A DNA stretch of 64,000 nt from positions 66,312,716 to 66,376,715 of the forward strand of contig CM026426.1 in the NCBI GenBank assembly GCA_014871385.1. The letters are read 5' to 3'. Each line of letters opens with the position of its first letter. The stretch's first letter is position 1. Under the pieces are notes generated by a model. The model saw only the letters and a list, made by a program, of their open reading frames with translations. It searched no databases and was not told the origin of the DNA. Both the position numbers and the translations under genes were made by a program. Origin of the DNA: Ceratodon purpureus. Taxonomy: Eukaryota; Streptophyta; Bryopsida; Pseudoditrichales; Ditrichaceae. Of the stretch, positions 20,201 through 60,301 are shown piece by piece.

Positions 20201-22170
20201 GGCATCCCACGAAGCCGTTAGTCGTGCATCCTGCTAGCATTCCGTATGCCGGGAAATCTCCCACTGTCCATATCACCATTGCCTTCAGGATGAAACGAGA
20301 GGACTCCTTGTAGTTGGCCACATCACGACAGTATATCCCGTATGTCCAAAGATCAAGTAGCTCATCTATCAGTGGCTCTATGAATACATCGAAGTGCTCA
20401 GCGATAACGGATTTTGGCCGAGGGATAAGCACCGAAAGCATAATGAAGTAATTCTTGGTGGTTAACCAAGGGGCAATGTTGTAATTCATCAACGAAATGG
20501 GCCAAATTGAATAAGTCCCTCGCTTATCTGAATTTGGGTTGAACCCGTCCGTAACTAGCGCCATCCGCACATTTCTGTCCTCGCTTCCGAACTCTTCCCT
20601 AGAGCGGTTGTTGATCCACTTCCATTGCGCTGAGTCAGAAACATGTCTCATAACGCCGTCCTCTTCACCCAATGTCGCCCACCATGTCATGGCGGCTGCC
20701 TGCATTGGTGATCGAAACATTGTCTTCAGTCTTGGAGTTAACGGAAACACACGACAAACCTTGTATGGAACCTCAGATCTCCCAACTCTCCTCTTCCGTG
20801 GTGCCCTGCATTCCGGACATACCCTTGCATTCTTCAAGGGACCTCTGAACAGTTTACAGCTATTTGGACATACATTGTAAGACTTGTAACAATGACCCAG
20901 CCTTCTCAGGTACTCAGAAGCCTCGCGGTAGGTCTTCGGGAGCGAATTAGGCTGGGGAAGTATCGTGGTACTCAGTGTCCGAAAGAGCTCCTCCATGTAC
21001 GTATCAGTACAACCATGTAACTTACCACCACTGAGGAGGACATAGGTGGTTCCCATGCTAGAGTGATTCGACCTTGCAAACAGAGGTGTTGCAGCCGCCT
21101 CTTCAAGAGCTGTGACTGCGGCGTCTGACTCATCATCAGACTCACCCTAGTCCATGGCCTCATCATCCCCTGAGAGATCATCTGCCTCAGACCCACTTTC
21201 TGCCCACTGTCCACCTGCAACCCCGTTGACTCCGCCCGCGGGAAGATCTCTGTCGATGTCTAGTGAAGGAGTGGATGGTCTCTTAGGTGAACATCTGCGA
21301 GGGGGACTCATGTGAGCAGGTGTATCAAAGGAGGGTGCTTCGTAGCCTGTGCCATTGACATCCATGTCTCTAGACCCTGCCTGGTCATGGTCAGGCTCCC
21401 GGCCTGGCTGCACAAATTCCGCTGCTCGTTCCCCATGGTGATCCCCTTCGTGACCTCCTTCATCACCCGGTTCATGGGGACGTCCCACCTCTGCACCTTC
21501 TTGGGCTGCTTCCGCTCTAATCCTGTCGACAATGTCCATGGCCTCGACAACCATCTCGGTCATATCCATCCCGGGATCTAAATTCCTTGGACCATGTGCA
21601 TTGTCATTGTTCCTGGCTTGAGCACCGTACCACCATACAATGTGATCCTCCCATTCGTCATCGGATTCGTCTGCATCGACCCCCTGCGCATATTACGAAT
21701 AAGTGTAATGTTGAGAGATGCGTATGGGATGGTAACTTTTGTTTTGCAAATATATTACTGACATTAACCAGCAAGCATCTGACATTTTACTAGCAGATAG
21801 CAAAACGGCACCCGCCGAATGGGAGAATCAGAGCGAAGTAAGGCACTAGAACTCCCTAAATGACTACATGGTCGCTCGAACTTCCCACATTTACAACATG
21901 TAGTGATAGGATATATATTTGCATACCTCTGTAGCTCCAAAAAACCACGGGTGACGAGAGTTCTCCCTGACGCAGCGCCGGTACGATGCAATGGAAAGTT
22001 CGGATTCCCGCATGTGTATTCGGCAGGGACAAAGGATCCTTCTGGAGTTCCGCTGTCTGGCGAGAGCAAGTTCGCGATCCAGCAATCGTGTTTCCCGTCT
22101 GCGAATGCGTTGTTGGTCCGGTGCATTGCGCCTGATCCCTTCCATTTTGGCAACGTTCTGAGAGAGCACG
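17270..22170 (-). pseudogene. CACTA (En/Spm) TNP2-type transposase, decayed
   Basis: Reading down the minus strand: a transposase-associated Cys region (about 22170-21930, with ILCPCRIHMRE); an exon from 21686 with an acidic leader; the conserved N-terminus ALEEAATPLF and GGKLHGCTDTYMEEL; a zinc-like CPNSCKLF...CPECRAP; the catalytic core (19851-21056); RHTLDMMHVEK at about 19.3 kb; a DUF4218-like block (18576-18878, ALLEIQFPLAFFNVMEHL); and a DUF4216-like block (17.6-18.1 kb, VYFVDDP). This order is that of plant TNP2 proteins, which cut CACTA elements out as DNA. Stops interrupt the frame at 21147 (TAG), 19092 (TAA), 18888 (TGA), 18576 (TAG) and 17839 (TAG), and the frame shifts near 18.4 kb. 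I could not identify the CACTA-type terminal repeats, so element ends are unknown. Confidence 0.85.
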
Positions 22171-34499: not shown

Positions 34500-35070
34500 T
34501 AGAAATTAGATCCTAACATGTTAAGTACGTTGTTGCCTCGGGTGCGGGTCCGCTTCGGGTACCCCGCCACGGACATCAGTACAGAACAACGCACACCACG
34601 ATTACACCACGATTAGGTTTGTTGTGAACCCCGCCATGGCGTGTTATGTCTGTCGCCGGACTCCGCCATGGCGGGAAGCAGCGTGCTTGCGTGGACATCC
34701 CCGCCCATCCAATTTGATCCCCACCAAATTTGTGTACAAATTTCTTTTCAGCATCTTCAGTCCTTCATCTTTCTCGAGTTCCGTGCCACGTTCAGTTCCG
34801 TGCAGACTTCAATTTTTGCGGTAAGGGTTTCTTGTTCCTTCTATTTTCTTGTATCTTCTATTTACTTGTTCCCTCTGCTTCGATGTCGTAGGATAGATGT
34901 CGTGATGCAGGATTTGATATTGGGTTGTTGATGTTGCTCTGTGTTTTCGATGTACCTTGCTCTTTGTCCCTTTTGCATTGCCGTAGATTATTCTTGATGT
35001 AGCTCTGTGCGGGCTTTGTAGACATAGGGAAGATGTTTCTGCTCAATTTTTCTTTGGGTTCTTCATGTAG
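34500..35070 (+). promoter_or_regulatory. Likely promoter, 5' UTR and first intron of the RING gene
   Basis: A GC-richer stretch contains the palindrome CGCCATGGCG twice (34628 and 34665 regions) and a direct repeat of ACACCACGATTA near 34.6 kb. A GTAAGG donor at about 34818 and a CATGTAG acceptor directly before the ATG at 35071 define a 5' leader intron of about 250 bases, a common plant arrangement. No TATA box is obvious. Confidence 0.35.
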
Positions 35071-37139
35071 ATGGAGGGTTCCAAAACCGTACCGAAATCT
35101 TTGAGCAAGGATCCTCTCTTCATCAAGTTCTCAGCCATTCTGCCCTCGTCTGGTGCTATAGTAGATGAAATCCGCGAGGAAATTCCTGAGTCTCTAGTTT
35201 CTTCTTACTTCGGACCGAAAGCGAGCAAATCTGGCTGGAAGTATGCTCGCCACTCAAAACCGGACGAAGCTGCTGCCATATTTGATCTGTGGACGAAAGT
35301 GTATGACGATGTTCATATGCCGAACAAAGAAATAACGCTCCACTTTGCAAGGGGCCTTATCTTGCAACAAACTTAGCCCGTGAATTGGACTGAGTTTGCT
35401 GCAAGGAGGCAGAGGTATAGGGAGCGTCAAAGAGAGTCGAAGAAGACTGGTATTGTGAAGGTAGAGAAGAGCAGTGTGAATCTTGGAGGGGTCTAGGTGC
35501 TAGGCAAGAAGAGGTTCCAGGTTCCCTTACTTACAGTTGAGGCGCCGTTGCCATCTGTTCTCAAGCTCACTCTCAAAGAAGAGCTGGAGGAGGACTGTAC
35601 GATGGGCAAGAGGGTTGGGCCAGCAAAGGGGAAAGGGTTCAAGAAGACCGATGATGGTGCTCCTCGTTGGGAGACAAGTGAATTGCAGGCCATATCTGTT
35701 GTCATTGAAAGGACAGAAAGCTTGTTCGAAGGGTGTCGTGTAGAGTTGAAAGAAAGTTCGGTGGAAGTTGAGAGATTAGAAGGTCAGTCTAGGAGGGCCG
35801 CCATCAATCTGTCTGATAGGGTTGTCATGTTAGAGGATCATGAGCGGGAGGTTGCGGGATTTTTAGAGCAAAATACACGCCTTTAGAGCACAATTCAAGA
35901 GACTGAGTCGCAGTTGAGTATACAAGGTGGTAGTGAAGTCCTGAATTCATCCCTTGTAAGCAGCAAGTTGCAGGTCGATGATGTTTCCCTTTCAATGGCC
36001 TTCGCGGCAAAAGCATCTGCCCACTGTCGAGCAATTGTTCTTGGGAGTCGGGTGGATCTTGCATCAGTTGAGGGGCAACTGCGTGAGAGTCTTGAGAGGC
36101 ATGAGAATGTTCGAAGTAGACTTTCAGGACTGGAACGTCTTCTTGTCAGCATGCATGACCAGTCAAAGAAGATGAACGAAGGCACTGGATATGCCTTCTT
36201 CCCAAGACCGATTGCAAATAATCCAGAGAGCCCCTTGTCTACTGTTCATATCATGAATGCGTGTCCTGTCTGCGGCTATTGGTACCTCGCTAACAACTTT
36301 GTTCCTTTGAGTTGTGGGCATACATATCATGTTTTCTGCTTGGCTCAACACGCAAGGACATCCTCCCTGTGCTGCTTTCAGGGATGTGATCAAGAATTCT
36401 CCCCTGGCAGCATTTGCTCAATCGGGATACGGATTTCCCAACCCATTACCAACCTCCCGAGTGAGGTCAAGATCGAGGGCGCAAAGGCGGGCCAGGGCAG
36501 AGAGTTCAAGATCCATGGTGAGCACTCGCCCCTCCCGATGTTCTTGTAAATGATGTGCTGTTCTCCAAATTTTGCTTGTTTCTTTCAACTGTTTAGTTTT
36601 GTTTCTAACTTGATTGGGTTGGTGAGTGAGCATAGTTTTTGACTTGCTATAAATCAGGGTTTGGATTAGAATGGGGTTTTGGAGTTTTTAGCAGTTGAGA
36701 AGTGGAAGTGAGAAGTTCCATCTTTCGAGGTTGAGAGAGTTTGTAATCAGTATCAAATTAGTGAACGTGAGGATTGGTTGCTCTTTTTTTTTCCTTCAAT
36801 TTTGAGGAATTTTTTGTTTCGAGATTGGCTATGTGGATCTTGGCAGTTGAAGTGACGAGCTCCGGGGTTGTCTTGGTTCTTTTCTTTCGGAATTTGATCT
36901 TATTGGGAGTAGCTTAGCTGGGAAAGTGGTAGTTGGGGGGTGGGTAAGTTGTGGAATCGCTGGCAACTTTTAGTGTGTTTTTCTTTTAATTAATTCTGAA
37001 GGCTTTTAGAGGAGTCGATGTGTTAGGTGATTAATTTTTGGGAGGAAAGATGGTTGAGGTTGTTCTGAGTGATAATTGTTTTCTGTACTTTGTTGATTCC
37101 GAGAGTCCTTTGTTGAGTCTGTGTCGAGTATTCATTTCC

Positions 37140-37860
37140 TCTTCATAGCTTCAAGAGTCTGTGTTGAGTCTGTGTGAAGCGACTTCAAGTCCGGAGGTGC
37201 CTTTCTTTCTGTACTTAATATGTCTTAGAGTCGACCGCCTCCTTTTCTTTCACCGTTGTCCTGCTCACTCTTTCAAAGTCCATTTTGGAACGCTTAAAGT
37301 CCGGTCATTGAAAGTCCTTTACTAGTTTTGTTTCATCCATTACTTAGAAGACAAATTCCTTTCCGAGTTTAGGTGCATAGCTCGAGTCCGTTCCTTTAGT
37401 TTCAGAGTCTGTTCCTTTTGTTTGAGGTTATGTTCCTTGAGATTTTGAGTCTGTAATTGGGCATTCTAAGTCCGTTCCTGGCCGAGGCAAAGATTAAGAC
37501 ATCTCTTCCTTTATTAATAGAGTCCGTTCCTTCTGATTAGAAGAGAGTCAATTCTTTTATTTATAGAGTCCGTTCCTTCTGATTAGAAGAGAGTCTGTTC
37601 CTTTATTAATAGAGTCCGTTCCTTCTAATTAGAAGAGAGCCTGTTCCTTTAGTTTCAGACTCCGTTCCTTTAGTTTTAGATTCTGTTCCTGAAGATTCAC
37701 GGTCTAGGATTTAGAGTCCGTTCCTTGTCATGTAAAGATTAAGAATCTCGTCATACAGTGATAGAGTCCGTTTAGGGTCAAGAGATTGAGGAAACGATCC
37801 TTTAGGAATACAGTCCGTTCCTTCTCATATTGGGGTTTGGGATTCACTTTCTCCTGAGTT
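37140..37860 (+). repeat. GTTCC-rich degenerate tandem repeat inside an intron
   Basis: Words of the type AGAGTCCGTTCCTTT recur more than twelve times. Some units are longer and nearly identical (GAGTCCGTTCCTTCTGATTA, then GAAGAGAGTC, twice around 37.53-37.65 kb). The array lies wholly in the 1.4-kb intron of the RING gene. The same words occur in the sense direction of an intron of the transposase gene at 46.4-47.0 kb. Confidence 0.7.
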
Positions 37861-38654
37861 TCAAATTCTGTTCCTTGGGCTGAGATTGAGAATCCGTTCT
37901 TGTGGTCCTTGCAGAAACAGGATCAGAGCTCCGAGGTCCGGAGATTCCCAGACCAGCATTGCTCTTTGGCTGTGTAACGCCAAGCACTTCAGTATCCACC
38001 GCCCAAGATTCTGAGCCCTCCAGCGAGTCTTTTAAGAGGACGGAGGAGAATACGACCCATATATCAGCGACAACAAGATCCCCACAGCCAGAACATGTCA
38101 CTAATCTCGGAAAAAGTGGTAGTTGTGGTGCACATTCATTTTCGGGGCTGGAGCGGGCACCACAAGCCGGCTTCAATCAGTCGCACTCTAGTGTAAGCAA
38201 CGACATTTCGGGGAAGACACATGCGGCAGATGAAACTACAGGCAAACTTTGCACCTTGTGCAAGACCAAAGCACCGTCACTGTCACTCACGGTAAGCCAG
38301 CTTGTACATTTTTCTTTTTCTATATCTCATAGGGTTTATCCACTAGTTCAGTTAGAAATATGTTGTTTTAAAGTTGTAGATGTAATGTAATCATTTTAAA
38401 GTTTTGGATGTGCGAATGTTTTGAACAGGCATGTGGACACGATAATTTCTGCTTTAAGTGCATCTCCGGTTTGGAGAATTGCTCGATATACACAACGAAG
38501 ATTGGAGGATAAGTTGTGACGTCACATAAATCCAACCCATCGCTCTTTCCACCTGCTGAGGCTGTAGTAGATCATGCAGACGCCAATGAAAGCGACGACG
38601 ACGACAATCCAGCACGACTTGTGGAATGGTGCGATGACGATTTGTTCTCTCAGG

Positions 38655-38687
38655 GGGGGGGGGGGGGGGGGGGGGGGCAAACGGTAC
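38655..38687 (+). repeat. Poly(G) tract, about 32 bases
   Basis: Homopolymer run inside the last open frame of the RING gene, read there as Gly codons. Replication slippage at such a run would change the frame easily. Confidence 0.9.
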
Positions 38688-39489
38688 TAGGAAGCACAGT
38701 TGCTAATGATAGCGTAGGCTTAGAGGGAGGTGAGAATTCGCATGCAAAGGAGAGGCCTAGCTTGGAAAACGATGAAGTAGCGGTAGCGGAAACTCTAGAG
38801 AGGACTGAAGATCGAGCTCCTTCGCTGAAGAAAACTTTCATTCGCCGTGCTACGAGGACGATGGCCACTGAGGAGCCCGCGGTTGCTGACGTAGAATTGG
38901 AGTCTAGTCGGCCAATAATTGCATTATCCAAGAAGCGACATGGCCAAAGATCACTGGACGTAGATACTTTAAATCATACCCGGCTGATGGAACGGCCACT
39001 AACGGAGATTTTAGTTGCAGCGCCACTAGCTGATCTCGACAGCAAGGCCAAGGAGAAGGATGCTCAACCAACTTCGAAGTGCATAGTTAAACGACTGCGC
39101 ATAGGAGCGACGCGGGGCAATTCACAACGTTTGACTGTCCCTGCAAAATTTAGAGAGTAGTTTTGATGCTTTGTATAGGTTCCATTTTTGGTGAAGATGG
39201 ATTATGGCTCACTAAACAGTACTTGTTTCTATGGTTTACTTCCCTAGTACTATGTGGTTTTTAAAGAGCTTTGGGTGATATTGTACATTCTTAAGCTCAA
39301 TTTGCATGAGATTGTGAGGGTTTGTGAGGGTCAGTTGGTTGTATGTAGGAGATCGTGAGTTTGTATGTTATCTTGTGAGGGTCAGTTCTAACTAAGTCAT
39401 AGCATGCCATAGTGTGCAATTCATTTGTATGAGAATTTTGCAGATGACCATTCATGAAAGAAGAAGAAAATCTTGAAAAAAAATCGAAT

Positions 39490-39679
39490 AAAATTGCGTG
39501 ACGGGGTGGGTGTCAGAGGGTGGTTTGGGGCCCGGCACAAGCACTCGAAGGTTGCCACGGCAGCCCCAAACCATTGGAGCCTCTGATCACCAATCCGTTC
39601 AGGCTGTACAACTGGAAGTGGGGAGTTGTGTGAGAGTATATATATCAAACCAGAGATACGATGGCAAATGATATGGGAT
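39490..39679 (-). ncRNA. snRNA-type Pol III gene candidate, copy A (~123-nt RNA with USE and TATA)
   Basis: On the minus strand an 11-base ATCCCATATCA (39679-39669) resembles the plant upstream sequence element RTCCCACATCG (two mismatches). About 23 bases on is a TATATATA box (39645-39637), the spacing used by plant Pol III snRNA-type genes such as U6. Transcription would start near 39612 and end at a TTTT at 39493-39490, about 123 nt. The RNA folds well: GGUUUGGGGC pairs with GCCCCAAACC, TCAGAGG with CCTCTGA just outside, and a further GGTG/CACC stem beyond, with a UUCG loop at the tip. It is not U6, U3, 5S, tRNA or any U-snRNA I can recall. Copy B at 42.4 kb differs by five transitions. Confidence 0.5.
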
Positions 39680-40139
39680 AAGTCCCGCCATGGACCAGTT
39701 TCACTTGCACCATGCTGAATAATATGTGATGCAAATACACTGTCATTGATGATGTAGGAACAAGTCCATCGATGAGGCATCAGAGGCATTGTCTTTGTGA
39801 TTGGTGACTGATTAAACAAACTGATTAAAGGTGTGCAGTGAAATGAGTATGACAGAGTTTCTAATGCATCAGGATTCTGTTCCGAAAAGTTCAGCAAAAT
39901 TTAGTCTTGTCTGGACTTTTTGAGGGCCTAACTGCAGCATACTTAACCAGTATTCTAGCGTGAGAAGTACAAAATCGTTTTGAATAAGTCCATAAGTGCA
40001 AATGTTTGTGTTTTACATCCTAACACAATTTACGTTCGTTTTGAATATTCCCTCGGTACTTATAGCAAGATGCTCTCACAAAAACAAATAACAGGCAACA
40101 CTCTAGCTGAGGTTTGCAACAACTATTTTGGCTAACTAA

Positions 40140-41268
40140 GCTTCCACTATACAACCGGAAGGGGATTCATCGAATCTTTTATATTGCAAAATTGTGAAAC
40201 TCTTACAGTAGTCCTTTGGAAGGCAGGCGCCATCAATCTCAGTGTCATCTTCATCTTAACAGTAAAGATTGACTTGAACTGTGCAGTCCTGATCTTGGTA
40301 CTTAGTCGAGCTTGCACACCGAAAGTCAGAAATCCCGCAATTGCGACTATTTGCTGGCTTCGTCTCTTGCGACACATCACCATGGTGTTACATCTGGAAA
40401 AATGGTACCAAGTATCAAATGAACTGAAATTAAACATGCAAAGTATATTTTGACCACGGTGCAGTTAGTGAAGACATGTACCTTGTTTATGAATGCAGTT
40501 AGTGATCAAAGACATACCTTTAGAGTTCTTGAGGAAATCAGCAACCGCCATTTCAGCCAGTGTGTTGAAGTCGTCGGATTTGTCCGAGCTTGGAATGGAA
40601 GACAGATCTATCACAGGTACAACTTTGCTTGGGCCAATCTGGGGCGCGTCGACAGAGTATGGGCAGTGGAGAATATGTTCGGACGCGTACCTTGCTTTGC
40701 ATGCCTGGCACCAACCCGCCAAGTTCGGAGTGTTTGCCATTCTTGCGGCGCCCGTAGATTGACGGCAACGAGCGGTTGTTCTCTCTCGGACAATTGCCGG
40801 CAGTGCTAGAACTGGTCGTAGTTTCGTTGGACTCCCACAGGATGGCACTGGCAGGTCTGATGCTCCTTGGACCTGCACCCCACCCGACGTTTCCGCGACC
40901 TCCTTCCCGGTTGATGGCTGCTTGACAACCTGTGCTTCATGCTTCCCAGGCGATGCAGGTTCGTTGCTCCCCACGAGTTGGTCCCCACGAGTTGGTTTGC
41001 GCTACTCCTTGGGACTAGTTGGTTCGTGCTGCTCCCCATGAGTTGGTTCGCGCAGCTCCCCACAAGTTTGCAGAGATCCCTATCGTCGCGGTCGCGGTGG
41101 ATGCATTATGCCAGTGGCATGCGCCACCGCGTGGAACTGCAGCAACGCCTTCATCTTCCAAGCACATCGCCAACTTGATGTAGGCATCTCCCGGACTTTG
41201 TCATGCTTGGGAACCTCCAGCCCGGTGACGACAACGAACTCTGCCACAGTCTTCAGCCACCAACGCAA
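40140..41268 (-). pseudogene. Decayed unknown gene with NQL/EPT-type short repeats
   Basis: One continuous minus-strand frame runs from about 41268 to a GTATGT donor at 40517. It starts with LRWWLKTVAEFVVVTG, then FHAVAHATGIMHP, then short repeats (REPTHGEQHEPTSPKE), then a Cys-containing stretch (GWCQACKARY...HCPY) and an acidic end. In-frame TAG codons stand at 41080-41082 and 41002-41004, both at positions where Gln fits the surrounding repeats. A likely further exon (40393-40140) reads FRCASSTKYQDCTVQVNLYC in one frame, with a TAA at 40256. I could not find an in-phase join to it. No known domain. Confidence 0.35.
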
Positions 41269-42150
41269 GCAAGGTAGGTTAGTTGGTGCATCCCGGAGCA
41301 GTTGGTACTCTGAACCTCTTCTCTCTGCCGACCCCTTCCAGACTTCTAGATCTCCCTACTCGTAGTCACCAACATGACGGAGCTCGGTTTTCACTCCGTC
41401 CGAGGTTTCAGCCCCGTTCCCCTCCTCATCTCTTTGTTGCTCCTTCCCCTTCCCAACTACTCCGGCCATCACCTTTCCCTTCCCAACAGCTTCTGCCATT
41501 GATTACGCCTGAGCACTCTAACACAATCCCTCCAGCTCCTCGCTAACAACTACTCACGACTACTTGCGAGCTCCAGTGCTCAAAGACTAAAAACTTACAG
41601 ACTGTGCACCCCACCTAATGAAGCTGCCCTGGACGTCTACAGTAGGAAGCAGTTTCACATGGCGAGGCACAGGTACTGTGTCTGAACGTTGCTAAATTCA
41701 TTTTGATTAGATGTCCTAAGAGTTAAATAATAATTCACTCATTGCCGGGGACATATTTCACTCCCAAGACACAAATTGGAATTGACAGACTAGAAGCTTA
41801 ATTACAGAGACACCAATTACTCCTCTTGAGACAGTTTGATTAATAGTTCATGGCAATCCGTAGATCTAGAACCCTACAGCCTAGACATCTCTGGAACTAG
41901 ACTGTTGAGTTGGAATCACGTAGTTCACTGTTCATCGCATCATCTAGACGGTTGCATCAGACTGTGGAGGCTGTGGAGTCCTAGACTTCCCAAAAGAATT
42001 ATCCAACACTTGTTTCAGAGCTGTGTCTACTATAATCCTGGAGGATTAGACACATGAAGGGCAACTATTTTTGCAGGCTACTGTTGGCGTGGAAATGTCT
42101 GGGCTCAGCTAGAACTGGTGTTGCGACAATAGAATTCATGTCCCCTTTTA

Positions 42151-42276
42151 GTTATGCTGAATAAATCTAGTGCTGGTTCAAGCTATGCTGAATAAATCTA
42201 GTGCTGGTTCAAGCTATGCTGAATAAATCTAGTGCTATTTCAAGCTATGCTCAATAAATCCAGTGCTCGTTCAAGC
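42151..42276 (+). repeat. Tandem repeat, 31-bp unit, four copies
   Basis: The unit GCTGAATAAATCTAGTGCTG plus 11 more bases starts at 42156, 42187, 42218 and 42249, exactly 31 bases apart, the last copy most diverged. It lies about 120 bases beyond the terminator of ncRNA copy B. Confidence 0.85.
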
Positions 42277-42397
42277 TAGTTACAACTTCACGGAATTGAA
42301 ACACAAATGAATCACAAAATAAAATTGGGTGAGATTGGGAGAGACTTGCAGATGACCATTCATGAAAGAAAAAAAAAATATTGAAAAAAATTCAAAT

Positions 42398-42587
42398 AAA
42401 ATTGCGTGGCGGGGTGGGTGTCAGAGGGTGGTTTGGGGCCCGGCACAAGCACCCGGAGGTTGCCACGGCAGCCCCAAACCATCGGAGCCTCTGATCACCA
42501 ACCCGTTCAGGCTGTACAACTGGAAGTGAGGAGCTGTGTGAGAGTATATATATCAAACCAGAGATACGATGGCAAACGATATGGGAT
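42398..42587 (-). ncRNA. snRNA-type Pol III gene candidate, copy B (~123-nt RNA with USE and TATA)
   Basis: The minus strand has ATCCCATATCG (42587-42577), one mismatch from the plant USE consensus. About 23 bases later comes a TATATATAT box (42553-42545), then a predicted start near 42520 and a TTTT terminator at 42401-42398. The main stems seen in copy A are unchanged, and the tip loop is UCCG instead of UUCG, both of the UNCG class. The duplicated block (42346-42589 against 39438-39681) runs almost exactly from the USE to just past the terminator, as expected for copies of a self-contained gene. USE function and spacing are established for plant snRNA genes. That this RNA is made is my inference. 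Confidence 0.55.
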
Positions 42588-45500
42588 AACTCGTAATGTG
42601 TGATGTGTATAGTGTTTGGTCGCAAGTCGTAATGTGTTGTTCTGTTTTTTTGCTAACAGCAATTGCATATGTGATTGGAGCTGGCTCGCTTTGTTAAATA
42701 AGTACATATGAACGCAGAGGTAAGGACCTATCATGAGAGTGTAAGAAAGAATAGAGAGACTTAGCTTGCTGCCTGATCACTTAGATTTTGACAGAAATTA
42801 ATTCACGGCATCCATAAAAGCAAGATTAATACAACAAAAATTATTGAAACATGTACGGTTGACTCGTCCAATCGAAACACACAGCTCTAAAACTAGGAAA
42901 TAATGTGCAAAAACCAAGATCAAACAGCATCTCAACAACATAAACCAGATTTCAACCAAAATATCAATGAGATTAGTAGACTCGCGTTTTCAAAAGCCAA
43001 GACAACAGCAGCAGAGCCACAAAACAGAAGTGAACATACTTACAGCTACGCTTGCAATGACAATAAAAGTTAGACCCTAGATACTAAGGAGAGCTCATAG
43101 ATGTTCAACACCAAAATGTATGTTTAATCACTTACTCATCAAAATCGCTCTCAGAGTCCTCGCTACTGTCTACATCATCATGTTCCTCATCTTCTTCTGT
43201 AGCGAGGTCCTCTTGTTCACGATGTCTCATCAGAACTTCCTCGATGTGTTCCAAGGTGCTGTCACTGAGCTGAAAGACAGTCTCGTTACCATTTTGCCTG
43301 TGCGGAGCCTGGGTCATAGTGAACTTAGTAGCAATCTAGATGGGAGTACACACGAGCAACTCCGGCTTCTCTCAAAAAAACATAGGAATTTGGTCGTCTA
43401 CCTTGATGGCGGTAATAGTACCCCTCTAAAACCTCGTCTCCGTCGTCAATCACAGTGTTCCACGCATCCCTGGTAGACGGACCTCGATGCACATACATAG
43501 ACTTGGTGCATTGCAGGACATAAAACTCTTCCCCAGGTTCATCTAAATTATTTGGATTAGCGACTATTGCGAAATGATCTCCCACCTGACACTCTGCAGC
43601 TAGTATATTATCGCCCGTCTCAACAATCCAGCTAGGGTCGGGATCCTCGGACTGTTGCACTGCGTTGTCGCTAGAAAGAGGTTGTAGCATCACAAGCTCC
43701 CAAGGACGTACATGAGTAGCGTTGGCACACACTCGGGATTTGCCCCGACCACATGCAGAGCAAAAACAGCAGAAATCCCTGCACTCGAAGAGCACATTAT
43801 TGGTGTGCGAAACTGATCTGATTGAATGCAAACTTCTACTTCCCGGCACTGTTTGACACGCTAAAGGCTTATCCCGGGGAACGTCAAATAGACCTATTAG
43901 GTGGAAATGTCTAACAACATGTTGTTTTGCATTCGGGTAGGCTGCATGCGGTAAGTTCATTTCTACCTGCAGAAAGGAGACTACATCTGTTGCATTATGA
44001 AGCTTGACGCTATCTTCCTTGAGTTGTTCTTTTCGAAGAGTCCGTTTCACCCATGCTCGTGCCCCGTCGTGGGGACCCTTTCCGTGACCAGTCCCCCAGT
44101 AATTCCAGTCGAGCTTGCAGCCTGTGGACAAGTTGTCTGACACTGTCAAGCTAGGGTATCTGCATCTCACAGCCAACGACACATTGTTAGTTATACTGTT
44201 AGAAGTCCCAAGAACCCTTCCATCCTGCTAAGGAACTAGATCTGCTTTGTATTGGTCTTGTCTTGCACCAAAACAAGCCTTTTATTATCCTAAAAGTCAG
44301 TAAAACAGACAGTTGACTTGATATTCAAACAAAAAAGGGTTTACAAAGAAATACATGATCACATGACATGTCTAAAAAACTCACCACAAGAAAGTTACAA
44401 TTCAGCACTGAGAGCATGAAGACATACACAGGGATTTATCGTTAAAAAATCCTTGATAGTTGGCTCATGCTGCTAAATCAAAGTTCTATCAGAAAACAGC
44501 ATCAAAAGAAATGGTAACTGACCAAGGAATCAACCTACTTTTGCTTCAGAGAAATAAAAGAAAAAATAAATAAATTTAGACTCATAATAACAAATCACCC
44601 TGCTAGGTGTCTACGTTCCATTGTAAGTTACTCTAGAAGATGAGTACGTCCTAAACGTCTTAACGAGATTATTTCTTGAACCTCACACATTGTGCAACCT
44701 GAACAGTACATAGCACCAAATGTACGTTACACTCTTCAAGCATCAAAATCGTACGCCATCCATCGTCTACTACTTTCTGTAGCAGATGCTAAATAATTCT
44801 GGTGATCCTATAACGCGTGTCAAAAAAATAAAAAATAAATAAAAAAATAATCCCTTGTTTATACCGCCTAGTTATTCTTCAAAGCAATTATTCATTATAA
44901 GATCTCTGCATACAATACTCAGATTCTCCGGACAGTTCTCTAGGCAATACTAAGAAGGGTCTCGACCTGATAAAAATAAGTTCATTTAAAATGATGGAGG
45001 ATTAAAAACAGCGGGATTGTTGACAAACTGTTTTGGACAGGTGCAAAACGCAGCATAGACCAATTACATTGAAATTAACAATAATTCACAAATATCTACA
45101 TATATAATCATACAATACATAATGAAAAACAATAATCATGATCAAAGAAATTACTACATACAGAATCATACAAAATATAAGTCACAACAATACATAATCA
45201 TAAACAGTTTGCAGCCTTCGTAGATAACCAAACAAATGCACCGAAATCAGGACACAGCAAACAACGACGCTTTCAGCCAGCACGTGCAAAGGATCTTTCT
45301 TAAAACATGACAAGGGACTTTGAAGAAAGCCTTTGCTTCCTTGAATTGAGAAGCACAGCCGTCACTCTACACGATATGTCGAGATGAAGTTTTTTCTGCA
45401 GCAACTAATGACGACCAGTGCAATATAAGACAATGTTGGACGTAAAGGGAGTCATGAACTCTGTCATCACTTATATAATAGTAGTACTCAGTTGATAACC

Positions 45501-46439
45501 TCTTCGATTGCGGGTCTTTAGGGTTGTGGCTGTTGTTGATGCGGTAAGTAATGTGCACCAGTATTGTGCATTGAAACGAGAACCAGTGCAGACTTTGGAT
45601 CTCGCTTTGCCCCTTATAGCTATAATTTTTGGCAAAATCGATGAGGCTCAGAACTTCACCTGGTTTAAGATCCTAAACTGATTGCTTGAATTTAGTATCT
45701 TGCCAACGTGCAACAAACTGGTGCCAGACGAATCCCTTTATCTTCGGCTCAGCATACAGTAGGAATTCTCTCGGTATTGTGACCTTGTACTCCAATTGTA
45801 TAACTTGCTTGGGGTCACCTTTTTTTGTTTTAGAACCAGTAGAGACCATTTCAAAGCATCTCCAAGTCATTGTGCTCTTGTTCTCCAGATCTACCTTTCT
45901 TTCACACAACGGAATAAGACGAAATCCGCACTCACTGCATTCTCCTTTGAGGCAGCTTTTAGCATGCCATTTGCTCCCCTGTAGCTGGGGACATAAACTC
46001 TGCTCCCAGAGTTTGCTGCTCCGTTTGTACCTAGCAATCACCGAACTTAGTCAGATTATTCCACATACATATATAATTAAATTTTCAAGCAAACTAAATT
46101 AATCATGAACGTGACAAGAGATTTGAGTGTACCTGTGACGAGACACCTGGCAAGTTACCGGGCCTTCCTTCATCGTTGATTCGCCAAAATTTGTGCATAC
46201 ACTTGCACAACCACAGGTACACCCGCTCTCACCCGCCTCGATGTGGACTTTGTTTGTTCGCATATTCTCAAGACCGGGAGTAATTTCCTACATTTCCTGA
46301 TGATACTTACAGCAGCAGCTATTGAAGTCCGTAAGTCGTTTAACATAAAAAGGCTTCAGTCGCTTGAAGACGGTGTAGGATAAAGAGACGTCACTGTTTG
46401 CAGCCCGAAATGTGGTATAAAAATGCAGCTGCACACGCA

Positions 46440-47960: not shown

Positions 47961-48734
47961 GTGCGTCACGTGAGTAATCTTTGTCTTGAACGCAACCCAT
48001 TTTACTCTAACGTCCTTCTTGCAGGAGCTCACTCTTGTCTCATCCGTCCACCAAGCGACAACCTGGTCAACAATGCACTAGTCGAAGGCGTCCTTCCTCT
48101 TCCGCTTGTAAAGCCTGGCCCACACCTCCCCATCAGAAGACTGGTTAAGCAAGGCCCTGCGTTGAATTGCACGACAAATCGTCTTCTTGTTCATCACGAC
48201 GCAAGTGGCTACTGCTCTCATGCATCGTTCGTCTCCAATTGAAATGACCGCAGCCTCTATGACATTACGTGCCAATATCCGATCCTTTCCGATCCCAAAC
48301 TTCAACCCTGACCACGCTTGGGCAAGACCATCACAAACAACTCCAGAAAGTTGTAGCTGCTTCCTCTCCGACACGTATTCGGGAACTACTCTTGCTAGGA
48401 CATGTTGTTCAATCAATTTCTGCATAAAGACTCTCTGGTATTCCTCCCCCCTTGTGCCTGTTTCTGCACTAATGCTGAATGCGACCTTCTTGGCATGCGC
48501 AGCGGCCGCCCTATGCAAGAGTGCCGTACGAAGACACTCGCTGTTATCAACAGATGCTGGAATAGACTGTGCAGCTTCACGACGTATCCTCTCCAACCCT
48601 CTATTCCTTCTCCTGCACTCGGTATTTTTCAGCCGTTGTTGTGCAACCCTCAATTTCTCTACCTGTCGACACCGCTCTTGCCTGATCCGGGACGAAGTCA
48701 TTCTGTCACAAAATTGCTCCTCTAACAGGTTCAA

Positions 48735-49900
48735 GCCGTTACCCTAAAAGTGAATCATCTCAATCGTGGCTTCAATCTTGCTCCAAGACCCTCAACCTTG
48801 CAAGACCGCAATCGCACCATCTCATGATCAGCTTAACCCTTCCCCTCGGGAGAGACACAATTTGTACCGTTGAATCCATTTCTCATGCGTTTCTAAAAGC
48901 CGTCCATTTCTCATGCGATGATCACCCTCGAAAGCGACCCTAAAACCGTATCTTTGTCTCAGGTACATTCCAGTTCCGTCATCTACATCTTGGAAATGCC
49001 GCTTTAGGAACCCACGCGCATATAGAAAATTGGCGCAATTTAGGTACCTCGTCGTCTTCGTTCTGTCTGTTTGGTATTGGATTTCGCAGCGTGAATGTCG
49101 GGTATTGGGAAGGGATTGGGCAGGTATTCGTTGGTTATTAGAGGGGTGTTCAATGGTTATTCAATGAGTATTGGAGGGTATTTGGTAGGTATCGGTTGCT
49201 AATGCTGTTGTTGTGAGAATGCCTTCGTATTTCCTGTTTAAGCTGTACTGTTTTTGTCTAATCGGTTTAGTTTAACATTTTGTTTAACAGTTTTGAATTC
49301 ACATTTAATTTAGACAAGTACAAATTACTATTATTTAATCCTCATGATATTATGTAAACCAATTTCAATTTGCTCAAAGTTTAAAGTGGTGCATCAATGT
49401 ACGTAAACATTAAGTTGCAAAACAAATTATAATTAATTGTAAACTGCAAATTCTAAATTTAACTGGATGTAAATGAAGGTTATGTGGAATCCTACGTGGA
49501 GAGCATAAATTAATGTAATGTATTCACTGACAAATTTTTTAAATAGTTGAATAATTGACACAGTCTGTTGACCAACTCTAATATAGTTCACCGTAGATGC
49601 GTAGACATTACTTGGTTAAAATTGTTTTTCACAAGTATCCTACGTGTCCAATGTAACTATTTGTATATTTCAGATTTTGACTTTAATCCGTATATATTTT
49701 AAATATATGTAGTTAATCAATATACCTGAACATCACGTTACATTCATTAAAAATTAATGAAATTTGAAGGTCCAGCCTTAATTGAAATTAATTGAAGCTC
49801 ATGTACAATATATCAAGACTATTTTAAAAGTGCATGTAATCATTGAGATTAAGATGTAGACATATATATTAAATATACACCTAGTGACCTATAGCATGTT
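48735..49900. other. Gene-free flank of the transposase gene
   Basis: Bases 49050-49200 hold loosely repeated GGTATTGG/GGTATTCG words. Beyond that it is AT-rich with no supported gene. Confidence 0.4.
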
Positions 49901-50030: not shown

Positions 50031-50279
50031 GTGCAGGGCCTTTAATAGGTTGCATGAATTGGAGGAATGGTTGCTTGTTATTTAAAATGTCATTTTTTGG
50101 AATGCCTTTCATTATTAAAATAATTTGTATATCTTTCTAAATATCATTTAATGCCTTTCATTCCTTTTCTTTCTTTGCAACATTATTAAATATCATTTTA
50201 ATATGCTGTGCATCTGTTTTTGTACTCTCTATTGTTTGCAAAGATTATTCAATGATAATTTTTATTTTATTTAGTATGT

Positions 50280-50770
50280 CTAAATATTCATTTTTCATTT
50301 CACTATTTTAATTGAGCTATTTTTTTTCTAATATGATTTAATTACTTTTATAATTTCATTTTCTCTTTTTAATTGAGTTATTTGAAAATTAATGTGCGAC
50401 CAAATTGAGTTATTTCTTCATTTGATTATTTAAATTGAGTAATTTGTTTCTCAATATGTATTAATCACTTTTATTTTCTTCATTTGCATATTTTAATTGA
50501 CTTATTTGTTTATTAATGTGCAACTAATCACTTTTGTTTTTTCATTTCCTTTCTTTAATTGAGACATTTGTTTTTTAACATGCAACTAAATACTTTTATT
50601 TTTTAATTTGGTTCTTTTAATTCAGAAATTTGTTTTTTAATAAAAATTAATCACTTTTATTTTTTCATTTGCTCCTATTAATTGTGTTGTTTGTTTTTAA
50701 TGTGCAACTAAGCACTTTTATTTGTTCATTTGGTTTTTTTTATTGAGACATTTAATTTTTAATATGAAAG
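50280..50770 (+). repeat. AT-rich minisatellite, unit about 62 bp
   Basis: The word CACTTTTATTTTTTCATTTG and variants recur at about 50466, 50528, 50590, 50651 and 50711, with two weaker units before. Spacing is 60-62 bases. Each unit also carries AATTGAG, ATTTGTTTTTTAAT and TGCAACTAA words. Confidence 0.8.
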
Positions 50771-55904: not shown

Positions 55905-57807
55905 TTCTAGGAGGGGGGGGGGGCAAGTGCTTCTAGGAGGGGGGGAGGCAAGTGCTTCTAGGAGGGGGGGAGGCAAGTGCTTCTAGGAGGGGGGCCCAGA
56001 GCTTCCGGGAGGGGGGGCGCGAGGTTATGGGTTTAGGGTGATTCTGGAGAACGGGGCATACAATTGATATTTTATTTTTTCCGTTCCATTACAAAAATAA
56101 CAATAAAATTTTATTCTCCACAAGAGTATATAGCCGTCAAAAAAAGATTTATTATGATTTTGCAAACGTGTAAACAAAGCCATATAAGCAATCAAAATGT
56201 TACATATGCAATTCACTATGGTACTACAATGTGCCTCTAAAACAACTATCAGGAGCTTTGAAGTTGTAAGGAGGACTCATCAAATCATCCACAACTCTTG
56301 CAAGTGATAGCCTCATCGTGGGGTCTTCGTTAAGCAAGCCATTCAACTTCGTTGAGAATGCAATCATTGACATTGTATCCTTGAAGAGGTATTGGCATTG
56401 TTCGTCCCTCCATATCATCTTTGCCAAATAGCCTACCGAAAATGCATTAGATTGCTCCATCCTGGAACTCTAAATTTTATATTATAATCCCCTTTCTCTT
56501 CCAATATTAATGTTTCATCTCTTAATGTTTTGTGCATACTTCCCTCTGTAATGATTCATTTATTTATTTCTCTTCCAACCTTGTTCCATTCTATACTATT
56601 TGTTTATTTTTTTAACTCTTCCATTTATTTTTAAACACAAAATGAAAAATAAATGGAAAAGATGAAAATAGATCGAACTTTAATATTGAAAAAGAAAGGG
56701 AAAAATATAAAATTAAGAGTATAGATTGGAAGAAGGTTGCAAGAGAAATAAATAATTATGAAAGGAAGTATGCCAGAAACAAACAATGAATTAACATTGA
56801 ATTAAAAATATTTAGATAGTTAATTGATTTAGTACGGAAGAAACAAACAATGCTCTAACATAGAATTAAAAAAAAATGGTAGAGATTAAAAAAAAAACAA
56901 AAAAACAAACATTAAAATCAGAAGAGAAAGGGATAATATAAAATCAATAGCATGGGATGGAAGAAGGTTGGAAGAGAAATAAAAATTTGAATAATTAATC
57001 AATTTAGTACGGAAGAAACAAACAATGCTCTAATATACAATTAAATATAAATGGAAGAGTTAAAAAAAAAACAAATATTAATATAGAAAGATAAAGGGAA
57101 AAAAAATAAAAAATAGTATAGAGTGGAACAAGGTTGGAAGAGAAATAAATAAATGAATCATTACAGAGGGAAGTATGCACAAAACATTAAGAGATGAAAC
57201 ATTAATATTGGAAGAGAAAGGGGATTATAATATAAAATTTAGAGTTCCCGGATGGAGCAATCTAATGCATTTTCGGTAGGCTATTTGGCAAAGATGATAT
57301 GGAGGGACGAACAATGCCAATACCTCTTCAAGGATACAATGTCAATGATTGCATTCTCAACGAAGTTGAATGGCTTGCTTAACGAAGACCCCACGATGAG
57401 GCTATCACTTGCAAGAGTTGTGGATGATTTGATGAGTCCTCCTTACAACTTCAAAGCTCCTGATAGTTGTTTTAGAGGCACATTGTAGTACCATAGTGAA
57501 TTGCATATGTAACATTTTGATTGCTTATATGGCTTTGTTTACACGTTTGCAAAATCATAATAAATCTTTTTTTGACGGCTATATACTCTTGTGGAGAATA
57601 AAATTTTATTGTTATTTTTGTAATGGAACGGAAAAAATAAAATATCAATTGTATGCCCCGTTCTCCAGAATCACCCTAAACCCATAACCTCGCGCCCCCC
57701 CTCCCGGAAGCTCTGGGCCCCCCTCCTAGAAGCACTTGCCTCCCGCCCTCCTAGAAGCACTTGCCCCCCCCCCCCCCCCCAGAAGCTCGCGCCCCCCCCC
57801 CCTAGAA
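55905..57807. repeat. Near-perfect long inverted repeat carrying a kinase-like fragment
   Basis: The arms 55905-56600 and 57112-57807 are mirror images about one centre (paired positions sum to 113712) with only a few differences. The spacer is about 511 bases of AT-rich tandem sequence. Each arm encodes the same 78-codon frame, with GLLNEDPTMRLSLARVVDDL, like the C-terminal lobe of a protein kinase (the DPxxR region); it lacks all catalytic motifs, so it is a captured fragment. A transcript through both arms would form a hairpin of about 690 bp, a ready source of small RNAs. The outer ends run into G-rich or C-rich repeats. The element appears young because the arms hardly differ. Confidence 0.85.
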
Positions 57808-58125
57808 GCTCGCGCGCCCCCCCCTCAGAAGCTCGCGCCCCCCCAAGAAGCTCGCGCCCTCCCTAGAAGCTCGCGCCCCCCCCCCCTCAGAAGCTCGCGC
57901 CCCCCCCCCCCCCCCTCAGAAGCTCGCGCCCCCCCCCCCCCCCCCCTCAGAAGCTCGCGCCCCCCGCCCTCAGAAGCTCGCGCCCCCCCCCTAGAAGCTC
58001 GCGCCCCCCCCCCTAGAAGCGCTGCCCCCTCTCCCCTTAGAAGCTCGCGCCCCCCCCTCCCCCCCCCCCCACCCTAAGAAGCTCTCGCCCCCCCCCCCCC
58101 CCCCCAAGATGCTGGCGCCCCCCTC
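57781..58125 (+). repeat. AGAAGCTCGCG plus poly(C) minisatellite
   Basis: About fourteen units of AGAAGCTCGCG each followed by a C run of 6-20 bases. The mirrored arm at 55.9 kb has only about four units of a related form (AAGTGCTTCTAGG plus poly G), so the array has grown on one side only. Open frames through it (Pro/Arg/Ala-rich) are by-products of the repeat. Confidence 0.85.
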
Positions 58126-58760: not shown

Positions 58761-58904
58761 AGGAATAAGATATTTATTAGAATAAAAAGCAACTATGAAG
58801 AATCAAACAACACCGTCGACAAGAGCTCACAAAAAAACCTTAAAAACTGAGAATAACGTACTAGACTTTCATCAAAACTCTGAACAAGGAATGAACTAGA
58901 CTTT

Positions 58905-59762
58905 CAGATCAGATTTTGTGAGAAGGAATGCACTAACAGTACCCAAATTGTCATTAAACCAAAAAAAAAAAATATCAAAACAAAATCCCCAAAATCCCAC
59001 CCCCCCCCGCGGCCCCACATTCGTGCACGAATGTGCTCAAACGGAATTTTTAAATTCTGGAAAATGGAAAATATTAAAAAAAAAAACCCCCAAAAATCCC
59101 CTCGGCCTTCCATTTCAGATCAGATTTTGTGAGAAGGAATGCACTAACAGTACCCAAATTGTCATTAAACCAAAAAAAAAAAATATCAAAACAAAATCCC
59201 CAAAATCCCACCCCCCCCGCGGCCCTACATTCGTGCACGAATGTGCTCAAGCGGAATTTTTAAATTCTGGAAAATGGAAAATATTAAAAAAAAAAACCCC
59301 CAAAAATCCCCTCGGCCTTCCATTTCAGATCAGATTTTGTGAGAAGGAATGCACTAACAGTACCCAAATTGTCATTAAACCAAAAAAAAAAAAATATCAA
59401 AACAAAATCCCCAAACCCCCCCCCCCCCCCCCCCCCCCCCTCGCGGCCCTACATTTGTGCACGAATGTGCTCAAGCGGAATTTTTAAATTCTGGAAAATG
59501 GAAAATATTAAAAAAAAAAAACCCCAAGAATCCCCTCGGCCTTCCATTTCAGATCAGATTTTGTGAGAAGGAATGCACTAACAGTACCCAAATTGTCATT
59601 AAACAAAAAAAAATAAAATATCAAAACAAAATCCCCAAACCCCCCCCCCCCCCCCCCCCCCCCCCTCGCGGCCCTACATTCGTGCATGAATGTGCTCAAG
59701 CGGAATTTTTGAATTCTGGAAATTGGAAAATATTAAAAAAAAATCACCAAAAATCCCCACGG
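58905..59762 (+). repeat. Satellite, unit about 211 bp, four copies, with internal poly(C) and palindrome
   Basis: Units start with CAGATCAGATTTTGTGAGAA at 58905, 59116, 59326 and 59550 (spacing 211, 210, 224). Each holds A-rich runs, a poly(C) run that grows from about 8-9 bases in the first two units to more than 20 in the last two, and the 14-bp perfect palindrome ATTCGTGCACGAAT (one change in some units). The last unit diverges at its end. The open frame 58918-59487 follows the unit length and is not a gene. Confidence 0.9.
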
Positions 59763-60301
59763 CCCAAAGTGCTGGCCCCGAACAAATCCCCAAGTGCTGG
59801 CCCCGAACTGATGAGCCCCTTCCTCGGCAATGACAATGCCTTCGAAGGGGGGGGGGGGTTTTAATTTGAATAATAAAAAATAAAAACACTTTGAAACTCA
59901 AGGCAACAGCAACTAGGCAGAGAAGCATCACACACCGCACTCACAAAACAAAATAAACAAGTGCTGGACAAGGAATCAAAACCCAAGCTTCATCAAAGGC
60001 ATAAGCCTCCTCGGCCTCCAACTGCTCATGCAGTGGGCTGCTCAGTAGCAGTCGATCGCTTCCCATTCCGCAACCTAAGAACCGCAACCCAAGAACCGCA
60101 ACCCAACAAGTCTCGCATTCCAACCCAACACAAGAAACTCCCAATACCCAACAACAATCTGAGAACCCGAATCCGCATTAGATCCATTCTCACAGAACCC
60201 AACCACAATAATGCTCGAATCCAAGTACATTGTACGAAATCATAATCACAAACCTTGCCGTACGATCTCATGATGGTTCTCAAGTCCGTGCGATAGAATC
60301 A

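Follow-up and report, generated by a model that had tools for sequence, protein, structure and literature searches.

Predicted snRNA-type RNA polymerase III genes for a structured RNA, probably carried by large DNA transposons in the moss Ceratodon purpureus

Introduction

Plant genes of the small nuclear RNA (snRNA) type, or type 3, which include those for U6, U3 and telomerase RNA/AtR8, are transcribed by RNA polymerase III (Pol III) and are marked by an upstream sequence element (USE), a TATA box at fixed spacing and a terminal T-run; SNAPc and TBP are known factors for these genes. To our knowledge, Pol III RNAs borne by transposons are known mainly as short interspersed nuclear elements (SINEs), which have internal promoters and move via RNA. 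Here we analyse a 64,000-nucleotide stretch of the moss Ceratodon purpureus (assembly GCA_014871385.1, contig CM026426.1, positions 66,312,716 to 66,376,715), hereafter the window, in which a duplicated snRNA-type gene for a structured RNA had been predicted from the sequence. The two blocks concerned are probably members of a large family of snRNA-type Pol III RNA genes that big DNA transposons carry as cargo.

The moss genes share with the plant snRNA-type genes the USE, the fixed-spacing TATA box and the T-run. They differ in that the RNA has no match among the Rfam families and its sequence patterns occur at hundreds of sites, in that the window copies are very probably transposon-carried, and in that one class was read without a USE. 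Viral VA RNAs and EBERs offer another likeness, being rod-shaped small Pol III RNAs of a parasite; the carrier here is instead a plant transposon, and the sequences were compared through Rfam only. Three sets of reports describe further relevant systems: plant telomerase RNA genes with a USE and a TATA box (PMC6765143, PMC12133305), hairpin MIRNA loci of Cuscuta campestris marked by a USE/Pol III-type promoter (PMC10226582), and Sola2 transposons that leave 4-bp target duplications (PMC3627910).

Results

Two related blocks in the window

Block A (39690-39440) and block B (42592-42348), both on the minus strand, agree with 94.3% identity across 245 alignment columns, so that the duplication described in the original prediction is real. 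Their likeness begins at TTATCCCATATC and ends at CATCTGCAA, past the T-runs. The USE (in both blocks of the form TCCCATATCRTTTG), the TATA box (TATATATA, starting 34 nt past the USE start) and the TTTT terminator that had been described all stand in their places in both blocks (Table 1). By analogy with U6, the 5' end of the RNA is predicted at 31 nt past the TATA start, which makes its first base the A of AGTTGTACAGCC, at window 42521 in copy B and 39613 in copy A. The predicted RNA has 120 nt plus U's, and the earlier figure of about 123 nt was therefore right.

Scored with model R1, whose own alignment includes both copies, copy B reaches 117 bits and copy A 112.6 bits. The copy B RNA has a folding energy of -58.1 kcal/mol, compared with a shuffle mean of -45.4 (z = -3.75), and slightly different cuts of the RNA give z = -3.41 for copy A and -3.20 for copy B. 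The predicted shape is a single long rod with an apical hairpin, and both nested stems that had been proposed, GGUUUGGGGC/GCCCCAAACC and UCAGAGG/CCUCUGA, are present in the minimum-energy fold. The proposed UNCG tetraloop, by contrast, was rejected as a feature of the family: its closing pair in copy A is a C.A mismatch, and elsewhere the loop reads UCUG, CCCG or CCAG.

Table 1. Features of the window. Coordinates of the parts of copy A were derived by hand.
Feature	Position	Strand	Remark
USE, copy B (TCCCATATCGTTTG)	42573..42586	-	same motif 5' of host U6 genes
TATA box, copy B (TATATATA)	42545..42552	-	start 34 nt past USE start
Predicted RNA, copy B	42402..42521	-	5' end set as TATA start + 31, by U6 analogy
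T-run terminator TTTT, copy B	42398..42401	-	
USE, copy A (TCCCATATCATTTG)	39665..39678	-	
TATA box, copy A (TATATATA)	39637..39644	-	
Predicted RNA, copy A	39494..39613	-	
T-run terminator TTTT, copy A	39490..39493	-	
Left terminal inverted repeat of window element	34540..34576	+	91.9% identity over 37 bases to C5 left end
RING-like open reading frame (ORF), part a	35887..36549	+	sub-threshold Pfam zf-RING_2
Second ORF of RING-like cargo region, part b	38513..39160	+	
ORF P1, 178 aa, between the RNA copies	40465..41001	-	at least 29 genome matches
Putative transposase, C-terminal part	43325..44227	-	named by motif resemblance
Putative transposase, middle part	45367..46050	-	two adjacent ORFs separated by a stop
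Putative transposase, N-terminal part	48078..48743	-	

A large family with a fixed promoter geometry

Further copies were collected from the 362-Mb genome, in which the window lies on contig C6 (contigs are denoted here C1, C2 and so on), by searches with copy A and then with a diverged copy; the search counts, based on the best 40 of 113 candidates and the best 40 of 539, respectively, are lower bounds. Judged by its length of 110,524,308 bases, C6 is probably the U chromosome, for which one review lists an assembly of 110.5 Mb, compared with 112.2 Mb for V (PMC9273592); another review puts the whole genome at about 360 Mb and each sex chromosome above 100 Mb (PMC8000587). This gave 75 clusters, which became 74 readable copies with the core, representing 61 distinct RNA parts, once a partial repeat was left out. 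The exact pattern of the core, which forms the apex of the RNA, occurs at 456 genome sites and that of the 5' part at 250, with 0 sites for either reversed control. With 456 core-pattern matches and none for its reverse, the copy number is beyond chance. The copies were sorted into class I (the window type, with the T-run directly after the RNA), class II (T-run mostly 26-33 nt past the anchor), class III, whose apex is altered, and class IV (L062, L063, L067, L069 and L070).

In 67 of the 74 copies the TATA box starts exactly 34 nt past the USE start. A TATA-like box could be recognised in 73, and all 74 have a run of four or more T's no further than 33 nt past the RNA end, mostly at 2-7 nt in classes I and III and, for the majority of class II copies, at 26-33 nt. 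The U6 genes of this genome have the promoter elements of the family: among 12 examined out of 24 genome matches, every one has a USE-like motif at -64/-65, and the TATA box starts 34 nt past the USE start in five and 36 nt past it in three, the remaining four having no TATA box at the expected place.

Sequence conservation follows the same parts. Across 24 diverged representatives, mean identity is 0.89 in the USE, 0.88 in the TATA box, and 0.83, 0.96 and 0.75 in the 5' part, apex and 3' part of the RNA. Outside these it is 0.32 upstream, 0.49 in the spacer, 0.37 in the leader and 0.41 downstream, where the upstream and spacer values are lowered by the choice of representatives (drawn from the 67 USE-bearing copies by low upstream plus spacer identity) and the leader and downstream values are unaffected by it. 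The USE, the TATA box and the RNA are thus kept while spacer, leader and flanks drift, which we read as the mark left by a functional promoter and its product.

Compensatory changes in the RNA stems

For the test of the fold, seven class III RNAs in which helix 3 is shifted, one RNA that is cut short and three with insertions were set aside from the 61 distinct RNAs, which left 50. On a 40-pair structure, 92.2% of the cells are paired. Double changes were found at 15 of the 40 pairs, compared with 8.1 in shuffles, and in 96 cells, compared with 29.9, and the covariation score is 0.164, compared with 0.084; none of 500 shuffles attains the observed value for pairs, cells or score. Double changes above those of every shuffle argue that the helices are held by compensatory changes and that the RNA fold is under selection, as judged from the aligned sequences. 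When the partner strand is slid by 1-3 columns, the paired cells fall to 33.5-49.2%, a comparison in which the structure, taken from one of the 50 sequences, is favoured over its slid versions. RNAalifold, run on all 61 distinct RNAs, predicts 28 pairs, 10 of them with double changes. Variants of the paired arms within the alignment include GGUUUGGGGC/GCCCCAAACC, GGUCUGAGGC/GCCUCAGACC, GGUGUGAGGC/GCCUCACACC and GGUACGAGGC/GCCUCGUACC. The stems are interrupted by bulges and internal loops, and the apex is the most conserved part of the RNA, with a mean entropy of 0.14-0.15 bits compared with 0.30-0.60 in the stem arms.

A large DNA transposon around the RNA genes

One element is represented by the clusters on C2, C5, C8, C10, C11 and C12 and by two further clusters on C6 that have diverged more. 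Comparison of the copies on C5 and C11 gave sharp element ends (C5:7891484-7916196 and C11:6025337-6046959), which have GGGTGCGGG...CCGCACCC in common; the elements start with GGGTGCGGGTACGCTTGGGG, and the terminus is inverted (...CCCGCACCC). These two, the only elements read at both ends, have 4-bp target duplications, TGTA/TGTA on C5 and ATCT/ATCT on C11. The element contains a RING-like gene, P1, several RNA genes and a putative transposase gene. Class II, class III and class I genes occur together and in the same order across its copies, and in the C5 element class II forms tandem copies in 535-base steps. The transposase is presumed to be one from its motifs (...WGTGHGKGPHDG...); its pieces have no match in Pfam or PDB, and its family is very large in the genome (best 131 of 986 and best 150 of 990 candidates scored). 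The element may be related to the Sola-type DNA transposons, which it resembles in its 4-bp target duplication, its short terminal inverted repeats and a transposase that matches nothing in Pfam, although it differs from them in its length of 21-25 kb, its RING-like and P1 ORFs and its Pol III-type RNA genes.

At least one element protein is found within the stretch read in 25 of the 28 fetched class I-III loci that hold the RNA, several of these loci being neighbouring pieces of one element; L035, which has no RNA copy, was left out, and the three loci that have the RNA and no element protein (L026, L027 and L029) are 3-4 kb each. At three places, on C2, C11 and C12, RNA genes lie 2.7-4.7 kb from transposases that are 47-49% identical to that of the window.

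The window itself holds a diverged and decayed copy of the element, in which the left end is followed by RING-like ORFs (35.1-39.2 kb), the RNA of copy A, P1, the RNA of copy B and, last, the pieces of the transposase (43.3-48.7 kb). Its likeness to the C5 element ends near 50,770, and tandem repeats common to the C5 element lie there, at 50261-50768. That the window copies ride on a transposon appears very likely. P1 has only a sub-threshold rubredoxin-like match in Pfam; it shows paired cysteines and a VIDLSS stretch, which we take to be SUMO-interaction-like, and together with the RING-like cargo ORFs (35887-39160) it possibly reflects a SUMO/ubiquitin theme.

A class with box B in place of the USE

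Class IV departs from this promoter plan. None of the seven class IV copies read has a USE, whereas all seven have the TATA box at the usual place (four tabulated, three by eye), and five have an exact box B, GGTTCGAATCC, located inside helix 3. The stretch held in common with one class IV copy begins no more than 10 nt before the TATA box for 46 of its 55 strong matches. L068, with an apex of the L056 type, has both USE and TATA box. The class IV apex accounts, in a count by eye, for 70 of the 100 apex-pattern matches listed of the 456. These features make it likely, as read from the sequences, that members of a single RNA family have gone from one type of Pol III promoter to another.

Class IV genes also form palindromic arrays with three genes facing outward on each arm. 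One lies on C4 (minus strand, 7682569, 7684697 and 7684920; plus strand, 7687639, 7687862 and 7689780), another of the same order is at C6:9721094-9728415, and a partial one is at C1:5316077-5321145. The palindromes suggest that there is another kind of element, one that bears long inverted repeats. A class IV copy is also present at G000:C6:66305945-66306137, 6.6 kb before the window start.

Searches among known RNA classes

Rfam gave no match at the gathering score for the whole window; for copy A it gave seven matches at E<=10, all far below the gathering score, and for seven further loci none at E<=1. ARAGORN found no tRNA gene in the window or in 14 loci. Telomerase RNA was rejected as a candidate, as none of the 61 distinct RNAs holds 8 nt of the (CCCTAAA)n template. 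A guide RNA of TnpB or Fanzor was rejected as well: PF07282 has no match in the genome, in a search whose control was positive in seven of 14 named genomes and which a diverged Fanzor could escape. With regard to a viral origin, a 21-mer from the 3' part of the RNA occurs exactly in three IMG/VR contigs; we take these matches as chance because the covariance model detects no copy of the RNA in those contigs. The 5' part, probed with a 20-mer, has no match in IMG/VR, and a piece of the transposase has no relative in it.

Other features of the region

Elsewhere in the window, long minus-strand ORFs at 19851-21692 have, by their motifs, the look of a CACTA/EnSpm transposase. A C-rich array with AGAAGCTCGCGCCC units occupies 57772-58096, and a tandemly repeated reading frame (IRFCEKECTNSTQIVIK...) lies at 58900-59864. 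On C5, just outside the element, a 624-aa ORF (L038 6714-8588) has a Pfam match to lysine/ornithine monooxygenase and is probably a host gene beside the insertion.

Discussion

Together, these observations make it very likely that the RNA genes are a real family of the Pol III type with a selected fold. The original prediction had named an snRNA-type Pol III gene and a structured RNA outside known classes, and on sequence tests both descriptions hold, the first through the spacing of USE and TATA box and the second through the Rfam result. It had also asked whether further copies would keep promoter and stems; they do, with compensatory changes in the latter. Other parts of it stand only in a narrower form. 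Between A and B the copied unit does amount to little more than the gene, although both lie inside a far larger mobile element; the duplication is real, although the two copies belong to a family of hundreds, carried by transposons, rather than forming a pair; and the USE promoter applies to 67 of the 74 readable copies, while one class has an internal box B instead.

We consider it probable that the blocks are such genes travelling as transposon cargo, and several observations weigh against this view. The right end of the window element was not found, and its transposase region contains stops. The class III fold is weak (z of -1.37, with 16 of 200 shuffles equally stable), and helix 1 is partly open, 20 of the 50 sequences being unpaired at three positions and 35 at the outermost. 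The association with the transposase is also limited. It was counted on C1-C5, where the list of RNA pattern sites is complete, after two fragments of one place had been merged. Three of 25 transposase places have an RNA within 15 kb, compared with a random mean of 0.23 (5 of 2000 simulations reach 3); with a second transposase search, which adds rows judged to be separate places, the count is three of 41, compared with 0.38 (14 of 2000). In both simulations the length of C3 is an assumed value. With so few of these transposases near an RNA, the partnership is not a general one, and only some of them come with the RNA. On the same contigs, a listed transposase lies near 11 of the 73 distinct RNA sites and is absent near the other 62; most RNA copies there, mainly of class IV, are located elsewhere.

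This last distribution would also be expected if the RNA gene were a small mobile or hitchhiking unit, similar to a SINE or to a miniature inverted-repeat transposable element, that has entered transposons of various kinds and promotes nothing but its own spread; the window copies would then be linked to a transposon only incidentally. Class IV makes this a serious rival: it predominates among the apex-pattern matches listed, it combines the lack of a USE with a box B, which is the promoter type of tRNA-derived SINEs, its unit has an edge close to the TATA box, and its palindromic arrays occur at two places or more. The family as a whole is, like SINEs, dispersed, of high copy number and of Pol III type. 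SINEs, however, would be expected to have an internal promoter only, and here the TATA box (and in 67 of the 74 copies the USE) lies upstream and is copied with the unit; an RNA intermediate would lose the TATA box and, in classes I-III, the USE as well. Moreover, the 3' flanks inspected are T-rich rather than A-rich, and class I-III genes reside with other genes in DNA transposons, in a constant order across the copies of one element. We therefore regard an independent hitchhiker as unlikely, though it is the strongest of the alternatives.

Two further explanations have less in their favour. The RNA is one long hairpin and would, as predicted here, be a USE/Pol III-type hairpin transcript in a plant, as are the trans-species microRNA loci of Cuscuta (PMC10226582); a Pol III-driven RNA of the microRNA type is nevertheless improbable, because conservation runs the other way, with a nearly invariant apex in place of a conserved stem and with variable arms that contain bulges and internal loops. 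A housekeeping RNA of the host (telomerase RNA, MRP, 7SL, U3 or U6atac) that went unrecognised and was copied into transposons would account for promoter elements identical in kind to those of the host U6 genes and shared with plant telomerase RNA genes (PMC6765143, PMC12133305). It is the least probable of the three, given the Rfam searches, the lack of a telomere template and the element proteins found in nearly all of the fetched class I-III loci.

If the genes are cargo of the transposon, host SNAPc and TBP would recruit Pol III to the USE and TATA box, and transcription would begin about 31 nt past the TATA start and stop at the T-run. The RNA may then act in trans as a protein-binding RNA, which is favoured by an invariant apex on a compensated rod. 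It is presumed to be useful to the element, since the element gains by keeping the gene only if the RNA acts for it. We tentatively suggest that its target could be an RNA-binding protein of the host, such as a component of the silencing machinery, towards which it would act as a stable double-helical decoy or scaffold, much as viral VA RNAs do; a role as a cofactor of transposition is ranked second and appears less likely. Also speculative, and rather doubtful as a whole, is the broader proposal that, in one lineage of eukaryotic DNA transposons, a structured RNA made from a U6-type promoter is encoded by the element and belongs to its functional parts, whether as transposition cofactor or as silencing decoy, and that a sister class went from an external USE and TATA box to a TATA box with an internal box B, which would provide a natural series of changes in Pol III promoter type.

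Each of the ingredients is known, and their combination is apparently unreported: among the matches listed in the open-access PubMed Central literature, none describes an snRNA-type Pol III gene in a DNA transposon. The moss case thus presents a U6-style gene with a fold that appears selected, inside DNA transposons whose transposases have diverged to 47-49% identity. The family provides a large natural collection of variant U6-type promoters whose geometry is fixed. If expressed, it would offer a model of the part that a non-coding RNA plays for a DNA transposon, of the possible evasion of silencing in a haploid plant, and of the passage of a gene between Pol III promoter types.

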